A stretch of 46,044 nt of DNA from Ruminococcus sp. GTDB taxonomy: Bacteria; Bacillota; Clostridia; Oscillospirales; Acutalibacteraceae. Under the pieces are notes generated by a model. The model was not told the DNA's origin and searched no databases. It was given only the letters and a program-made list of their open reading frames with translations. Both the position numbers and the translations under genes were made by a program. The DNA is taken from assembly GCA_024403825.1 (NCBI GenBank), contig JAKSRB010000007.1, forward strand, positions 1-46,044, written 5' to 3'. How positions within the stretch are numbered: the stretch's first letter is position 1; each line of letters opens with the position of its first letter. Shown here one piece after another: positions 3,118 to 30,827 of the stretch.

Positions 3118-3870
3118 ATGAGTAACTGTGCTATTATTCTCGCAGGTGGCGAGGGCAAGAGAATGAAGTCTGATAAACCTAAAACTCTTTCACTTGTTCT
3201 TGAAAAGCCTATGCTTGAATGGGTTATCAGTGCAGTCCGCAAGGCAGGAATTGATAATATCTGCGTTGTAAAGGGCTACAAAAAGGAATGTATTGAAGAA
3301 TTTCTCAGTACAGATAATTACAGTAATGTTGAAAGTGTTTATCAGGCAGAGCGACTTGGTACAGGTCACGCTGTAATGATGGCAAAGGATTTTCTTAAAG
3401 AAAATAAAGGTAATGTTGTTATTCTTAACGGTGACGCACCATTTATGGACAGCGAAACCATTGCAAATGCATTAAAACAACATTCTGAGGGCAATTTTGC
3501 GGCAACTGTTATTTCTGCCAAGGTTGATGACCCTACAGGCTACGGAAGAATTGTTCGTACAGATGACGGAAGCCTGTTGTCAATCGTTGAGCAAAAGGAT
3601 GCCGATGAGGAAACACTTAAAATAAATGAGGTAAATTCAGGTGGATTCTGGTTTGACTCTGAAATGCTTTTAAGTGTACTCGACAGAATAAAGGCAAATA
3701 ATAATGCTAAGGAATATTACTTACCTGACGCACTCAAGCTTTTACTTATTGACGGTCAGAAGGTTGGTGCATATACCGCTGAATGTTCTGACACAGTTCT
3801 TGGTGCAAATGACCCTGCACAGCTTGAGGAGCTTAACCAGATTGCACTCGCTAAGGGTTATTCCTGTTAA
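3118..3870 (+). CDS. GlmU-type nucleotidyltransferase (uridylyltransferase domain only)
   Basis: Sugar-phosphate nucleotidyltransferase resembling the N-terminal half of GlmU, which makes UDP-GlcNAc from GlcNAc-1-P and UTP for peptidoglycan. The Rossmann-like NTP-binding signature LAGGEGKRMKS is at residues 8-18, with the lysine of KPKTL just after it. QAERLGTGHAV (about residues 79-89) and LNGDAPF (about 102-108) match the uracil- and metal-binding loops of GlmU; YGRIVR and EVNSGGFWF follow. The protein stops at 250 residues, so the left-handed beta-helix acetyltransferase domain of a normal ~450-residue GlmU is missing. It lies directly upstream of prs, the same order as glmU-prs in bacilli, supporting a GlmU role. 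GlcN-1-P acetylation would have to be encoded elsewhere. Another sugar substrate is possible. Confidence 0.85.
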   Translation: MSNCAIILAGGEGKRMKSDKPKTLSLVLEKPMLEWVISAVRKAGIDNICVVKGYKKECIEEFLSTDNYSNVESVYQAERLGTGHAVMMAKDFLKENKGNVVILNGDAPFMDSETIANALKQHSEGNFAATVISAKVDDPTGYGRIVRTDDGSLLSIVEQKDADEETLKINEVNSGGFWFDSEMLLSVLDRIKANNNAKEYYLPDALKLLLIDGQKVGAYTAECSDTVLGANDPAQLEELNQIALAKGYSC

Positions 3871-27119: not shown

Positions 27120-27171
27120 AAGCTGATAAAATGCATTAATGTTCTATTGTTTCATTGCTTTTTATCAGCTT
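27120..27171. terminator. Hairpin between spoVT and the cohesin-like gene
   Basis: Twelve-base arms (27120-27131 and 27160-27171) are perfectly complementary with a 28-base loop. One arm lies inside the last codons of the minus-strand gene. It could stop transcripts of the convergent pair, but the loop is long and T tails are weak. Confidence 0.3.
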
Positions 27172-27919
27172 CTTTCTGTGTTTTTATTATTCGCTTTTCC
27201 GAATGAAGCTTATATAAATACATTCCAAAAAATACTGCTATTGTAACACCTGCACCTATTGCTATACCGATTATCGTATCTGATTTGCTATCTGAGTTTG
27301 AAAAATTAAAAAACCCCAGATTATCTGTTGTTGAATTTTTATCTGCCTGTGTTGCTTCATTTTGCGTACTTTTCGTCTTTGAGCTTGATATATTGGAGCT
27401 TTTATCCTTATTGTTACTGTCCTTTGAATTATCTTTTTCAGATTTATCAGTATTACTTTTTCCTATATTTACATTTGAAGCTGTACAGCTTTTAATGTCA
27501 ATAAAATCTAAATCTGAACCAACACAATCACTTGCAGTTAAATCAATTCTGCAGCTTCCTTCTTTTATAGATTTAAATGTAAGAGAACATATTTTTGCTC
27601 CATCTGATATATTTTTACCTGACGGATTAAGAAAAGAAATCTTTATTTTTCCATTGCTATCCTTTGCTACAACTTTTGAGTTACTATCATCACACTTTAT
27701 TTCCCTGTAACTTATCATTTCATTATCATATTCAAGCTCAAAAATTACAGCACTAAGCTCCTGATTACCGCTTGCTAATATATCAACTGTAAACAATCTG
27801 TTATTGCTACATTCAACATTGCTCAAGCTAAACTCAATATCTCCTGTAGCACCCACCGAAAAAACAGCCGACATTATTAACAATAAAACCAAAAATACAG
27901 CAGAAAATTTCCTAATCAA
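27152..27919 (-). CDS. Cohesin-like domain protein with C-terminal membrane anchor
   Basis: 255-residue surface protein. It has a signal peptide (residues 1-24, ending SVGATG), a single cohesin-like beta-sandwich (about residues 27-150), a Ser/Asn/Lys/Asp-rich linker with many SKDN and NKDKSS type repeats (150-210), one membrane helix (IGIAIGAGVTIAVFFGMYLY, about 216-235) and a basic cytoplasmic tail. Cohesin traits are FTVDILASGNQELSAVIFEL, EYDNEMISYREI, GKIKISFLNPSGKNISDGAKI and SLTFKS. Known cohesins bind dockerins, so it may hold one dockerin protein at the membrane. The start is TTG with GGAG eight bases upstream. It lies about 150 bases downstream of the dockerin amylase stop but has its own strong promoter. 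A non-cohesin adhesin of the same fold is the alternative. Confidence 0.72.
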   Translation of the reverse strand: MIRKFSAVFLVLLLIMSAVFSVGATGDIEFSLSNVECSNNRLFTVDILASGNQELSAVIFELEYDNEMISYREIKCDDSNSKVVAKDSNGKIKISFLNPSGKNISDGAKICSLTFKSIKEGSCRIDLTASDCVGSDLDFIDIKSCTASNVNIGKSNTDKSEKDNSKDSNNKDKSSNISSSKTKSTQNEATQADKNSTTDNLGFFNFSNSDSKSDTIIGIAIGAGVTIAVFFGMYLYKLHSEKRIIKTQKEADKKQ

Positions 27920-27951
27920 TATTATTTCTCCAATAAGTCGAATTATAAAAT

Positions 27952-27981
27952 ATTATATCATCTATTTAAAAATGCTGTCAA
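27952..27981 (-). promoter_or_regulatory. Promoter of the cohesin-like gene
   Basis: On the minus strand TTGACA (27976-27981) and TATAAT (27952-27957) are 18 bases apart, with TGA before the -10. Confidence 0.7.
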
Positions 27982-28005
27982 TATAAATTGATTATAAAAA
28001 ATTAA

Positions 28006-28033
28006 GTGTGCAAGCCTTGTCTGACCTGCACAC
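28006..28033 (-). terminator. Terminator after the amylase gene
   Basis: Arms GTGTGCA (28006-28012) and TGCACAC (28027-28033) are followed on the minus strand by TTAATTTTTTATAA. Confidence 0.5.
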
Positions 28034-28067
28034 CCTTCAAATTATTCTATATTCCTTAAATTTTATA

Positions 28068-30827
28068 TTACCATGTACTTACATTATATCTGCCCTTGGA
28101 ATCAGTTGTATTTACGACATAGTATCTTGCACTTCCTGATACTGTCACATTTTCTGTCTGTACACTTCCATTTGAGAATATAACATACTGGGCATCACTT
28201 GGAATGTCATATGTATATATACTCTGTCCATAGCTGTTTGTCTTGGAGTATGACATTGTCTTTCCTGGCCATGTTGACATTGTTTTATTTGTATCTGACC
28301 AGTAATAACAATAAATTGTACCGCTCCAATTAAGTGAATTAGTAAATGTCATTGTGTATTTTGCTGGCTTTGTTGTTGCAGGCTCTGTTGTTGGTGCAAC
28401 TGTTGTTGCAGGAACTGTAGTAGGTGCAACGGTTGGAGTTGTTGTTGGATTAATAATATCATCAATATTCTTTTTTACACCACAATTACAGCTTTTTGAT
28501 GAAATGCCATTAAGGTAGTACTGAATTGCAGTTGCATCCTTAATATTAACATTTTTATCAGCATCCGTATCCGCTGCTAATAAACCATTCTTAGAAATCT
28601 GAGAAAGCTCCACAAGATATTGCTGAATTAAGGTTGCATCATTAACATCAATAGTATCATTGCAATCAGCATCACCAATAAGAACATAATTATTATCTGT
28701 TGTAGGCTCTGTAGTTGTCGGAGATACTGTTGTAGCTTCGGTTACAGTTGTTGGCGGTACAGTTGTGCTTGCTGTTGTTGTAGGAACAGGCACATATTCT
28801 TTCCAGCTATGATTTGATGAAAACAGCATTGATTTTCCGTCAAGTGATAAGCCTGTGGCACCGTCAGCAGGATAACGATTTGTTGTTGCAGTTGAGCTTT
28901 CTGTAAATATAACCTTTGCATTTGCAAGCTTTTCTTCAACCTCAAGCTCATAGTAGCCTGTTGCAGAGTTATATGTCATAGCCTCACCAGGCCAAACTGC
29001 ATTTTTTACAGTTGTACCTGTTGATTTATCATACACATACGCATAAACCTTTGACCATTTATATGATGTATTATCAAAATAAATTTTTAGGGTTTCGGAT
29101 GGGTCTTTTTTAACATATGTATATTTACTTACAGCAGAGGTTGTTGTTCCGTCAGATGCCTTTACAGATACTACTGTTGAAGAGCCGTAAGGAAGTCCAC
29201 TGCCTATTGTAATTGTATCTCCGTTTTTGAATGTCTTATACTCTGAATTGTCTATTGCATAATATGCAGTTGTTGCATTTTCGCAATTAAGTGTAATTTT
29301 AAGCGTATCTGTTTTATATGTAGTTGACTCAGGAGATGCTGTTGCAATCGGTGTATTTTCGCAGTTATAAACAACTGCAACACCTGAAGAGCTTACCTCA
29401 CCCGAAATAGTACCATTTGATACTGTAAATGTACGACCTGAAATCTGGTCTTTATAACTGCCTGATACCATTTTATTGGCTTTCAGACTAACATTTCCGC
29501 CACCGTCAAGCTTTGATATAACTACACCTGTTGTACCTCTTTCAATATATGCAACCTTACCACTGCTTGAAAGATATTCGCTCTGACCGTCAAAGTAATT
29601 TTTAAATTTATTAACCTCTTTTACAGCAGTAGATTTCCATGTTGTGTCTGTACTTGCATCACCCATATTTGCAGCTGGGCGAGCAAAGAAAAGCGAGGTT
29701 GATTTTGCTCTTGCTCCGATAATTGCCCACGCTTTCTTGATGACAGCATCAGATACACCGCTTGTATTTTTCAATGCATTAATAGAACCTGAATCTCCCA
29801 TATATGTATCATGAGATTCTACCCATAATACTGAATGACTTGCACCAGCTTCGAGTACATACGAAGAGCTTGCAAGCATTCCTGCATCACTTATATATGC
29901 ACCATAAAGTGCAGAGTCACCTGTTTTATTATCAGTAACATTGATATACTTTGTATAATTGGAAATATCAGTACTCGCGGTATTGAGAATTTCACCATAA
30001 TAATAAATCGGATTAGAGGTAGTTGCCTTTGAGCCATCTACAACAACTGGCCAGAAATCGCTTGCACAATTACTATCAGTAGGCAATTCAATATGCTTTG
30101 CGGCATCAAATCTGAATCCGTCAACACCAAGTCCGATAAGTTCAACTAACAGGTTTTTAAATGACTTCTGAATATATGAATTTCCCGTATTAAGGTCAGG
30201 CTCACCAATACTTCCACGAGTCATATCATAGCGATTGCTGTCACTTGCCCAGATACTATTAATATGCCAATAATCAGAATTTGAACGCAGGGTTGAATTA
30301 ACACTACTATGAATGTCACTCATTTTATTTCCTTTACCTTCAATATTAGCCATATGATTTGCTACAATATCAACTATAACCTTTATACCATACTTATCTG
30401 CCTCAGCACACATTTCTTTTAATTCTGCCTTAGTTCCAAGCCAGCTTTGACCGCTGTCTGCAATGGAAATATCAATAGGCTGATAAAGCTTCCACCATTG
30501 ACCGCTTTGGTCCTTCCAACTGGATTTATAATCCTTTGGTGGCTGTACCGGAGAGGTTTGAACAGCAGTATAGCCTGCCGCCTTAATATCCTCAAGATTT
30601 TCTTTAATTGAGTTATAAGACCAGTTAAAGCAATGCAATACATTTGAACCGTCAACAGTTTTCTGAGGTCCCTGACTTGAAGCTGATGCCTTTTCCTGTT
30701 CAGTAGTGGCTGAAACTTCTGAACGCTCAACAGTAACTGCATTTGAAGTCAATGAACCTGTAATAAGGCTTGTTGCAAGAATACTGACAGCCAGTATCGA
30801 GCTTATAGCTTTGTTTTTTAATTTCAC
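28068..30827 (-). CDS. Secreted GH13 alpha-amylase with two CBM26-like modules and a dockerin
   Basis: 919-residue exported starch hydrolase. After the signal peptide (about 1-31) the GH13 barrel begins HCFNWSYNSIKENLEDIKAA, as in Bacillus subtilis AmyE (subfamily 28). The four conserved regions are visible: VDIVANH (about 152), GFRFDAAKH (nucleophile Asp, about 239), YGEIL (acid/base Glu, about 277) and WVESHD (about 335). A beta domain and a first CBM26-like starch-binding module (about 577-676, TLKIYFDNTSYKWSKVYAYVY) follow. After a Thr/Pro linker come a dockerin (about 715-780) with two calcium-loop repeats carrying DATLIQQYL and DATAIQYYL, and a second CBM26-like module at the C-terminus (about 824-919). 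The internal dockerin position is unusual. GTG start with AGGAGG RBS. Confidence 0.95.
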   Translation of the reverse strand: MKLKNKAISSILAVSILATSLITGSLTSNAVTVERSEVSATTEQEKASASSQGPQKTVDGSNVLHCFNWSYNSIKENLEDIKAAGYTAVQTSPVQPPKDYKSSWKDQSGQWWKLYQPIDISIADSGQSWLGTKAELKEMCAEADKYGIKVIVDIVANHMANIEGKGNKMSDIHSSVNSTLRSNSDYWHINSIWASDSNRYDMTRGSIGEPDLNTGNSYIQKSFKNLLVELIGLGVDGFRFDAAKHIELPTDSNCASDFWPVVVDGSKATTSNPIYYYGEILNTASTDISNYTKYINVTDNKTGDSALYGAYISDAGMLASSSYVLEAGASHSVLWVESHDTYMGDSGSINALKNTSGVSDAVIKKAWAIIGARAKSTSLFFARPAANMGDASTDTTWKSTAVKEVNKFKNYFDGQSEYLSSSGKVAYIERGTTGVVISKLDGGGNVSLKANKMVSGSYKDQISGRTFTVSNGTISGEVSSSGVAVVYNCENTPIATASPESTTYKTDTLKITLNCENATTAYYAIDNSEYKTFKNGDTITIGSGLPYGSSTVVSVKASDGTTTSAVSKYTYVKKDPSETLKIYFDNTSYKWSKVYAYVYDKSTGTTVKNAVWPGEAMTYNSATGYYELEVEEKLANAKVIFTESSTATTNRYPADGATGLSLDGKSMLFSSNHSWKEYVPVPTTTASTTVPPTTVTEATTVSPTTTEPTTDNNYVLIGDADCNDTIDVNDATLIQQYLVELSQISKNGLLAADTDADKNVNIKDATAIQYYLNGISSKSCNCGVKKNIDDIINPTTTPTVAPTTVPATTVAPTTEPATTKPAKYTMTFTNSLNWSGTIYCYYWSDTNKTMSTWPGKTMSYSKTNSYGQSIYTYDIPSDAQYVIFSNGSVQTENVTVSGSARYYVVNTTDSKGRYNVSTW

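Follow-up and report, generated by a model that had tools for sequence, protein, structure and literature searches.

Genes and features at the locus

The stretch of DNA analyzed here, a 46,044-nucleotide window from the genome of a Ruminococcus sp., encodes a small single-cohesin protein with a predicted C-terminal transmembrane (TM) helix, which we refer to by the working label COH_TM (Table 1). A preliminary description of this DNA read the protein as a signal peptide, one cohesin, a linker, a single membrane helix and a tail, and all of these elements are found in its open reading frame (ORF), whose TTG start is directly preceded by a GGAG-type ribosome site (identified by eye). The cohesin assignment was checked by scanning the domain alone against the PF00963 profile, which it matches with 30.4-30.6 bits (E ~5e-7; the Pfam cut-off is 24.1), and a six-frame search of the genome with the same profile recovers it at 29.9 bits, again above the cut-off, whereas an hmmscan of the entire protein does not list it. 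The C-terminal helix is called by hydropathy only. No LPxTG-like motif is present in the protein, and the sorting-signal profile PF00746 gives no match at its gene up to an E value of 10. Pfam scans of the whole protein and of the cohesin domain alone returned no SLH domain; the whole-protein scan is the one that also missed the cohesin, and about 20 residues lie outside the signal peptide, cohesin, linker and helix. With at least one cohesin and a predicted C-terminal TM helix, COH_TM fits the category of the non-SLH, TM-helix anchoring scaffoldins.

The COH_TM gene adjoins, downstream and co-directionally, a gene for a GH13/CBM26/dockerin amylase, an arrangement that the preliminary description had reported and that the ORFs and Pfam matches confirm. 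In this amylase, hmmscan finds GH13 with 56.8 bits and two stretches of CBM26; among solved structures, R. bromii Amy16 is the closest match (E 5.6e-142). The amylase dockerin scores 21.5 bits in hmmscan, under the 22.9 cut-off, and over it in the genome search (28.8 bits), and both of its calcium loops look intact by eye in an alignment. The two genes are probably separate transcription units because a terminator-like hairpin and a promoter match lie between them, in agreement with the separate promoters claimed earlier; as classes, promoter-like sites show no clear enrichment in the region (27 versus 21.2 +/- 4.6 in shuffles), and terminator-like sites are near chance (3 versus 2.6 +/- 2.0). 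The window also encodes a second dockerin protein, in which no Pfam domain other than the dockerin was matched at an E value of 1e-5.

Table 1. Coordinates of the features discussed; positions are those of the window unless a locus (L) is named.
Feature	Position	Strand	Basis or detail
COH_TM, single-cohesin membrane protein	27152..27919	-	ORF, 255 aa, TTG start
Signal peptide, ~residues 1-25	27845..27919	-	Predicted, by eye
Cohesin domain, residues 27-154	27458..27841	-	PF00963, 30.6 bits, E 4.5e-7
Polar Ser/Lys/Asp/Asn linker, 60 residues	27278..27457	-	Sequence
C-terminal membrane helix	27215..27277	-	Kyte-Doolittle mean 2.15, best 19-residue stretch
Basic tail, ~20 residues, predicted cytoplasmic	27155..27214	-	Sequence
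Promoter-like site of COH_TM gene, TTGACA-18-TATAAT with TG	27952..27981	-	12/12 consensus bases, sigma-70-type, 18-nt spacer
Intrinsic terminator-like hairpin 3' of amylase gene, 13 pairs	28004..28035	-	Fold z -5.1; 0/200 shuffles as good
Dockerin alpha-amylase, Amy16-like (GH13, CBM26, dockerin, second CBM26 stretch)	28068..30827	-	Pfam and structure-sequence match
Amylase dockerin, two calcium-loop repeats	28509..28676	-	PF00404, 28.8 bits in genome search; aligned with other dockerins of the genome
Second dockerin protein, 495 aa	21238..22725	-	PF00404, 31.0 bits
Cobalamin clusters downstream of COH_TM gene	L118:7872-15474 and L146:1-5954		Two other species of the genus
Cobalamin cluster of the window's genome	L252, contig C83, 40-7735		RF00174, 38.2 bits; two dockerin proteins; CbiQ-like EcfT; ABC/EcfS domains

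Conservation of COH_TM across the genus

Of the 150 genomes of the genus, 128, that of the window included, gave a COH_TM match in a single-protein search (E 1e-3), as did 67 of the 75 genomes of good quality. The locus set used for comparison consists of the window and loci taken from 105 of the other 127 genomes with a match, the 22 weakest-matching genomes being left out; of these 105, 14 are named loci retrieved with a query that combined nine similar members of the family, and 91 came from further fetching. An ORF matching the family profile is present in all 106 loci, and each of these members has a C-terminal hydrophobic helix, with a lowest 19-residue score of 2.02. A hydrophobic stretch precedes the cohesin in 105 members, the linker has a median length of 61 residues (range 44-82), and the tail that follows the helix has a median of 20 residues (range 1-69, the single residue being a tail cut by a contig end). 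An LPxTG-like string occurs in one member, as a weak LSTGE in L189. A GxLN-like pattern before the helix was rejected as a sorting motif, as it is found in 36 of the 106 members only, and a disulfide was likewise rejected as a mark of the family: its two cysteines are invariant in 22 aligned sequences, yet they occur together in only 49 members.

When every second of the 106 domains was scanned, PF00963 was matched at E<=0.01 by 44 of 53. A profile of these 53 domains, compared with solved structures, has its best match in C. perfringens NagJ (2jh2/2ozn, E ~3e-5), with weaker matches to cellulosome cohesins. Orthologues are carried by R. bromii 5AMG and ATCC 27255. In the wider taxonomic family, 16 of 120 sampled genomes match at E 1e-6; two of these are the window's own genome and one congener, which leaves 14 of 118 from other genera, and some of the matches are situated in long frames and may represent cohesin proteins of another kind. 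Six of these wider-family loci were fetched (L233-L238), and they show good scores with the full family profile and a hydrophobic stretch in the C-terminal part. Dockerins were found at E 1e-6 in all 12 genomes of the genus that were tested for them.

Gene neighborhood of COH_TM

A dockerin-bearing GH13 gene neighbors COH_TM in one of the 106 loci, the window itself. GH13 stretches were otherwise found near the gene in L187, at 1.6 kb and with no dockerin ORF found beside it, and in L113, at 6.8 kb, so the amylase neighbor is not conserved; 2 kb of flanking sequence was available to either side in 73 of the 105 other loci. Conserved synteny of COH_TM with the amylase was rejected on these data, and their adjacency looks peculiar to the genome of the window. 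The preliminary description had treated the two genes as a minimal amylosome surface module, a proposal that is not supported, given this single adjacency and a COH_TM family matched in 128 of 150 genomes.

Among the genes tested, the commonest neighbor is a radical-SAM block, which lies within 2.5 kb of the COH_TM gene in 26 of the 105 loci and adjoins it in all 14 named loci, a biased sample given the query with which they were found. The first gene of this block is TIGR01212 (MnmL/YtqA). The block also includes a B12-binding radical SAM protein, TIGR03960 (L093:11241-13106), which is probably a housekeeping protein. No cohesin ORF was seen around the MnmL/YtqA locus of the window's genome (L126), so the COH_TM gene has either moved from this place or been replaced there. 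In the window the gene lies beside a SpoVT-like gene, whose score of 231.2 bits falls slightly short of the 235.9 cut-off; a counterpart of this neighbor is found within 2.5 kb of COH_TM in three other loci.

Dockerin ORFs of any kind occur in the fetched stretch of 17 of the 105 loci. Eleven of 24 such ORFs lie within 1 kb of the COH_TM gene, as compared to 5.5 expected under uniform placement (p ~0.01), a count that omits the two dockerin ORFs of the window and one 40-residue fragment. Ten of the eleven are on the same strand as the COH_TM gene.

Cohesins, dockerins and sortases encoded in the same genome

The genome of the window (G000; 1.97 Mb, 139 contigs, 94.75% complete) contains seven places that match PF00963, five of them over the cut-off, COH_TM among these. 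L001 (573 residues, apparently with two cohesins) and L005 (a cohesin protein of 635 residues) each end in a VQTG-helix-RKK tail that resembles a sortase signal; PF00746 scores these tails at 16.1 and 14.3 bits, under its cut-off of 20, and the sorting signals were read by eye. Nine sortase matches are present, all over the cut-off. COH_TM is not the only anchor: besides it, the five PF00963 proteins include two whose tails are sortase-like and one more that has a C-terminal helix.

The latter, L004 (L127:3877-4689; 271 residues), likewise combines a single cohesin with a C-terminal helix and represents a second TM single-cohesin family, to which L104 and L109 of R. bromii and L101 also belong. 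This family is distantly related to that of COH_TM (hhalign 90.3%, E 1.5e-6), and in both the window's genome and R. bromii its gene lies near a gene for a sortase-like scaffoldin. A relationship to ScaE was considered for it and dropped, since a search with one sequence matched no solved structure at E 0.01 and the profile gave weak cohesin matches. L002, a cohesin protein of 286 residues, has an N-terminal helix only. Together with L112 (R. bromii 5AMG) and L102 it forms a set of single-cohesin proteins that have an N-terminal helix or a lipobox-like start and lack a C-terminal helix, perhaps a third way of holding a cohesin at the membrane. The two places below the PF00963 cut-off are L006, with cohesin-like domains and a dockerin, and L007, with a cohesin-like domain and repeats that we take to be X25-like.

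PF00404 marks 43 dockerin places in the genome at an E value of 10, and 42 dockerin ORFs were collected from fetched stretches with a custom profile. At least seven of these carry GH13 (the window amylase and six others), a lower bound given that 21 of the 42 were scanned with Pfam and all 42 were compared by blastp with the GH13 domain of the window. Because of these seven ORFs the amylosome context assumed in the preliminary description is real: judged from its genes, the genome is of the amylosome type, combining dockerin-bearing GH13 enzymes with cohesin proteins. The dockerin set extends beyond starch, since peptidase domains, papain-type in two ORFs and M60-type in another, are found within it (L242:1309-2994, L265:1944-3806 and L273:4026-6125; the dockerin of L273 was recognized by the custom profile). 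A further dockerin protein, of 2220 residues, combines BspA-type leucine-rich repeats with CBM26 (L241:4609-11268).

Adjacency to cobalamin-uptake genes

In two other species of the genus, G149 (L118) and G076 (L146), the COH_TM gene lies directly upstream, and on the same strand, of genes for dockerin-DUF4430, alpha/alpha-toroid, DUF4430 and energy-coupling factor (ECF) proteins. The order that follows COH_TM is dockerin-DUF4430, alpha/alpha-toroid protein, DUF4430 protein, EcfT-like and EcfA-like, with EcfS in G149. The toroid protein of G076 is dockerin-tagged, whereas that of G149 has no dockerin match and shows a C-terminal hydrophobic stretch by eye. In G076 the dockerin protein scores under the DUF4430 cut-off (21.3 versus 23.8 bits), and the EcfT-like protein of G149, which has no Pfam match, resembles the EcfT of the window's genome, which matches CbiQ. 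Between the COH_TM and dockerin-DUF4430 genes lies a cobalamin riboswitch (RF00174; 95.6 bits in L118 and 42.3 bits in L146, with an Rfam cut-off of 31.5); as it comes after the COH_TM gene, this gene itself is probably outside its control. A fluoride riboswitch (RF01734, 40.8 bits) is also present in L118, at positions 3361-3431.

The window's genome has a cluster of its own on contig C83, comprising a dockerin protein with two DUF4430 domains, a dockerin toroid-like protein and a DUF4430 protein; the toroid protein has no Pfam match at E 1e-4 and was recognized by its similarity to those of G149 and G076. The contig begins 39 bases before the riboswitch, and the gene upstream of the cluster lies beyond it. 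Adjacency of COH_TM to a cobalamin cluster was thus seen in two of 105 loci, and about 0.1 such pairs would be expected by chance in 105 genomes with one cluster and ~1800 genes each, a rough estimate that was made after the fact.

One half of the transcobalamins is an alpha/alpha barrel. The DUF4430 domain lies at their C-terminus, according to the available part of PMC4350170. A bold reading, which we consider doubtful, is that in the genus of R. bromii secreted, dockerin-tagged proteins resembling transcobalamin halves (toroid and DUF4430) could be held at the membrane by COH_TM, with an ECF transporter and a membrane-bound DUF4430 protein beside them, and that docking could thereby serve micronutrient capture as well as polysaccharide breakdown. 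No description of dockerin-tagged cobalamin uptake was found among the listed papers of the open-access literature searched; of those from 2023 onward, the 25 listed out of 104 do not mention DUF4430. In one listed article, PMC12844089, the terms dockerin, cobalamin and ECF transporter each occur one or two times.

A probable membrane-close receptor for dockerin proteins

We consider it probable, judging from predicted domains and gene comparisons, that COH_TM is a general, membrane-close receptor for dockerin proteins rather than a partner dedicated to the neighboring amylase. This is supported by the PF00963 matches of COH_TM and of 44 of the 53 scanned family domains, by the layout shared in 106 loci, by the spread of the family over the genus, by the dockerins of all 12 genomes tested, by the excess of dockerin ORFs within 1 kb and by the promoter-like site that the gene has for itself. 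COH_TM would be exported and then kept in the cytoplasmic membrane by its C-terminal helix (both export and topology are predicted), with its cohesin carried on a linker of ~60 residues that reaches at most ~20 nm when fully stretched. Gram-positive walls are commonly 20-40 nm thick, so the cohesin is probably positioned close to the membrane rather than at the outer surface, where it would be working between the membrane and the wall or within the inner wall. In that position, as its family suggests, it would catch the calcium-loaded dockerins of secreted proteins and could act as a common docking point for some of the 42 dockerin proteins. Such a role would complement the sortase-type scaffoldins of the same genome, which appear better placed to display enzymes on the outside. 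Docking near the membrane would be fitting for proteins that supply membrane transporters with small molecules; alternatively, newly exported dockerin proteins might be held there before they pass outward.

Several observations weigh against a general receptor. The weakest matches in both the genus and the wider-family searches may be other cohesins, nine of the 53 scanned domains have no PF00963 match at E 0.01, and the solved-structure matches of the family profile are weak. No COH_TM match was obtained in 22 of the 150 genomes of the genus, and the protein may be dispensable, since all eight of these non-matching genomes that were tested have both PF00963 proteins and dockerins. In five of the eight there is an ORF that combines one cohesin with a C-terminal helix (L215, L216, L217, L227 and L228); these ORFs may be divergent COH_TM members or belong to the second TM family. 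The excess of dockerin neighbors is modest: in 88 of the 105 loci the fetched stretch contains no dockerin ORF, and the 11 loci with a near dockerin are not independent, as neighbors look similar within L201/L161/L177, L203/L178 and L118/L146. Finally, the argument from linker reach depends on general knowledge of wall thickness.

The proposal that the COH_TM cohesin serves at the cell surface to receive either the neighboring amylase or a scaffoldin that bears this enzyme draws on the adjacent, co-directional genes, on a genome with at least seven dockerin GH13 ORFs and on the apparently intact calcium loops of the amylase dockerin. We regard it as unlikely, as one adjacency in 106 loci is about what chance would give (a rough estimate of ~0.8 for seven such genes, 1800 genes per genome and 106 genomes), the two genes appear to be transcribed separately, the linker is short and sortase-type scaffoldins are available in the same genome. 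It is a somewhat better prospect, still doubtful, that COH_TM is a receptor for dockerin-tagged cobalamin-capture proteins and passes these proteins on to an ECF transporter that shares its membrane, which would be a special case of the general receptor. The gene order and riboswitches of L118 and L146 point in this direction, as do the cluster, two dockerin proteins and RF00174 match of the window's own genome, whereas the arrangement occurs in only two of 105 loci, the riboswitch follows the COH_TM gene, the DUF4430 match of L146 is below its cut-off, and the cluster of the window's genome is on a separate contig that starts just ahead of its riboswitch.

The beta-sandwich of COH_TM could be cohesin-like and have a function other than dockerin binding: the domain is divergent, two cysteines occupy fixed places (both kept in 49 of 106 members) and no dockerin gene adjoins it as a fixed neighbor. 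This seems improbable to us in view of the PF00963 matches in 44 of 53 domains, the modest dockerin excess and the presence of dockerins in 12 of 12 genomes. There is slightly less to recommend the idea that the C-terminal helix belongs to a sorting signal of an unusual type and that COH_TM ends up linked to the wall, which we judge very unlikely. A helix followed by a basic tail does resemble the end of a sorting signal, nine sortase matches are available in the genome and a GxLN-like stretch precedes the helix in 36 members; set against this, a single member has an LPxTG-like match, the tail reaches up to 69 residues around its median of 20, and PF00746 finds nothing at the COH_TM gene.

Comparison with known systems

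In the model of the R. bromii amylosome given in the available part of PMC5814915, complexes are attached to the cell through sortase-linked scaffoldins. A conserved cohesin held in the bilayer suggests that there is another type of docking place, closer to the membrane, and the anchoring scheme of this keystone degrader of resistant starch may thus be incomplete. If the cobalamin link is true, cohesin-dockerin docking would reach beyond carbohydrate breakdown to vitamin uptake. Six places in R. bromii 5AMG encode cohesin proteins (one on C24, two on C37, two on C36 and one on C34); those on C24, C37 and C36 are over the PF00963 cut-off, and that on C34 was recognized by its similarity to L007. 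ATCC 27255 also encodes a cohesin-plus-dockerin protein (23.4 bits, below the cut-off), which we take to be Amy4. Sca2 reportedly resembles ScaE.

R. bromii has five described scaffoldins, Sca1-Sca5, with sortase signals in Sca2 and Sca5 (PMC5814915, as far as available). Their setting resembles that of COH_TM in being amylosome genomes, as both 5AMG and ATCC 27255 hold a COH_TM orthologue, whereas this orthologue, unlike Sca2 and Sca5, shows no sortase signal. Given the six cohesin places in 5AMG, one or more of the R. bromii cohesin proteins may lie outside the published five. Other systems provide further points of comparison. The best solved-structure match of the family profile, the NagJ cohesin domain of C. 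perfringens (2jh2, 2ozn), comes from an O-GlcNAcase, whereas COH_TM is a small membrane anchor. The ScaE protein of R. flavefaciens has one cohesin, and both it and COH_TM are cohesin anchors. They differ in that ScaE is, in the accessible text of PMC4081043 and PMC12484212, a cell-surface anchoring scaffoldin linked covalently to the wall by sortase, whereas COH_TM has no such motif.

The closest architectural parallels are single-cohesin TM proteins described in H. luporum, C. cibarium and Lachnoclostridium sp. MSJ-17 in the available part of PMC11557425, which lists the C-terminal TM helix as one characteristic of non-SLH anchors. The preliminary description had presented COH_TM as a distinct architecture held by neither sortase nor SLH domains; the lack of LPxTG-like and SLH matches bears this out, whereas the claim to distinctness falls, because the TM-anchored single-cohesin scaffoldin is already a published category. 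Like these anchors, COH_TM has one cohesin and a C-terminal helix that is thought to be seated in the bilayer. R. bromii is not among the species to which the same text assigns a bona fide cellulosome. In contrast to the published anchors, which come from other species and have Coh2-type cohesins in H. luporum and C. cibarium, COH_TM, likened to them by the description of their architecture only, is a genus-wide protein of R. bromii and its kin, in genomes of the amylosome type.

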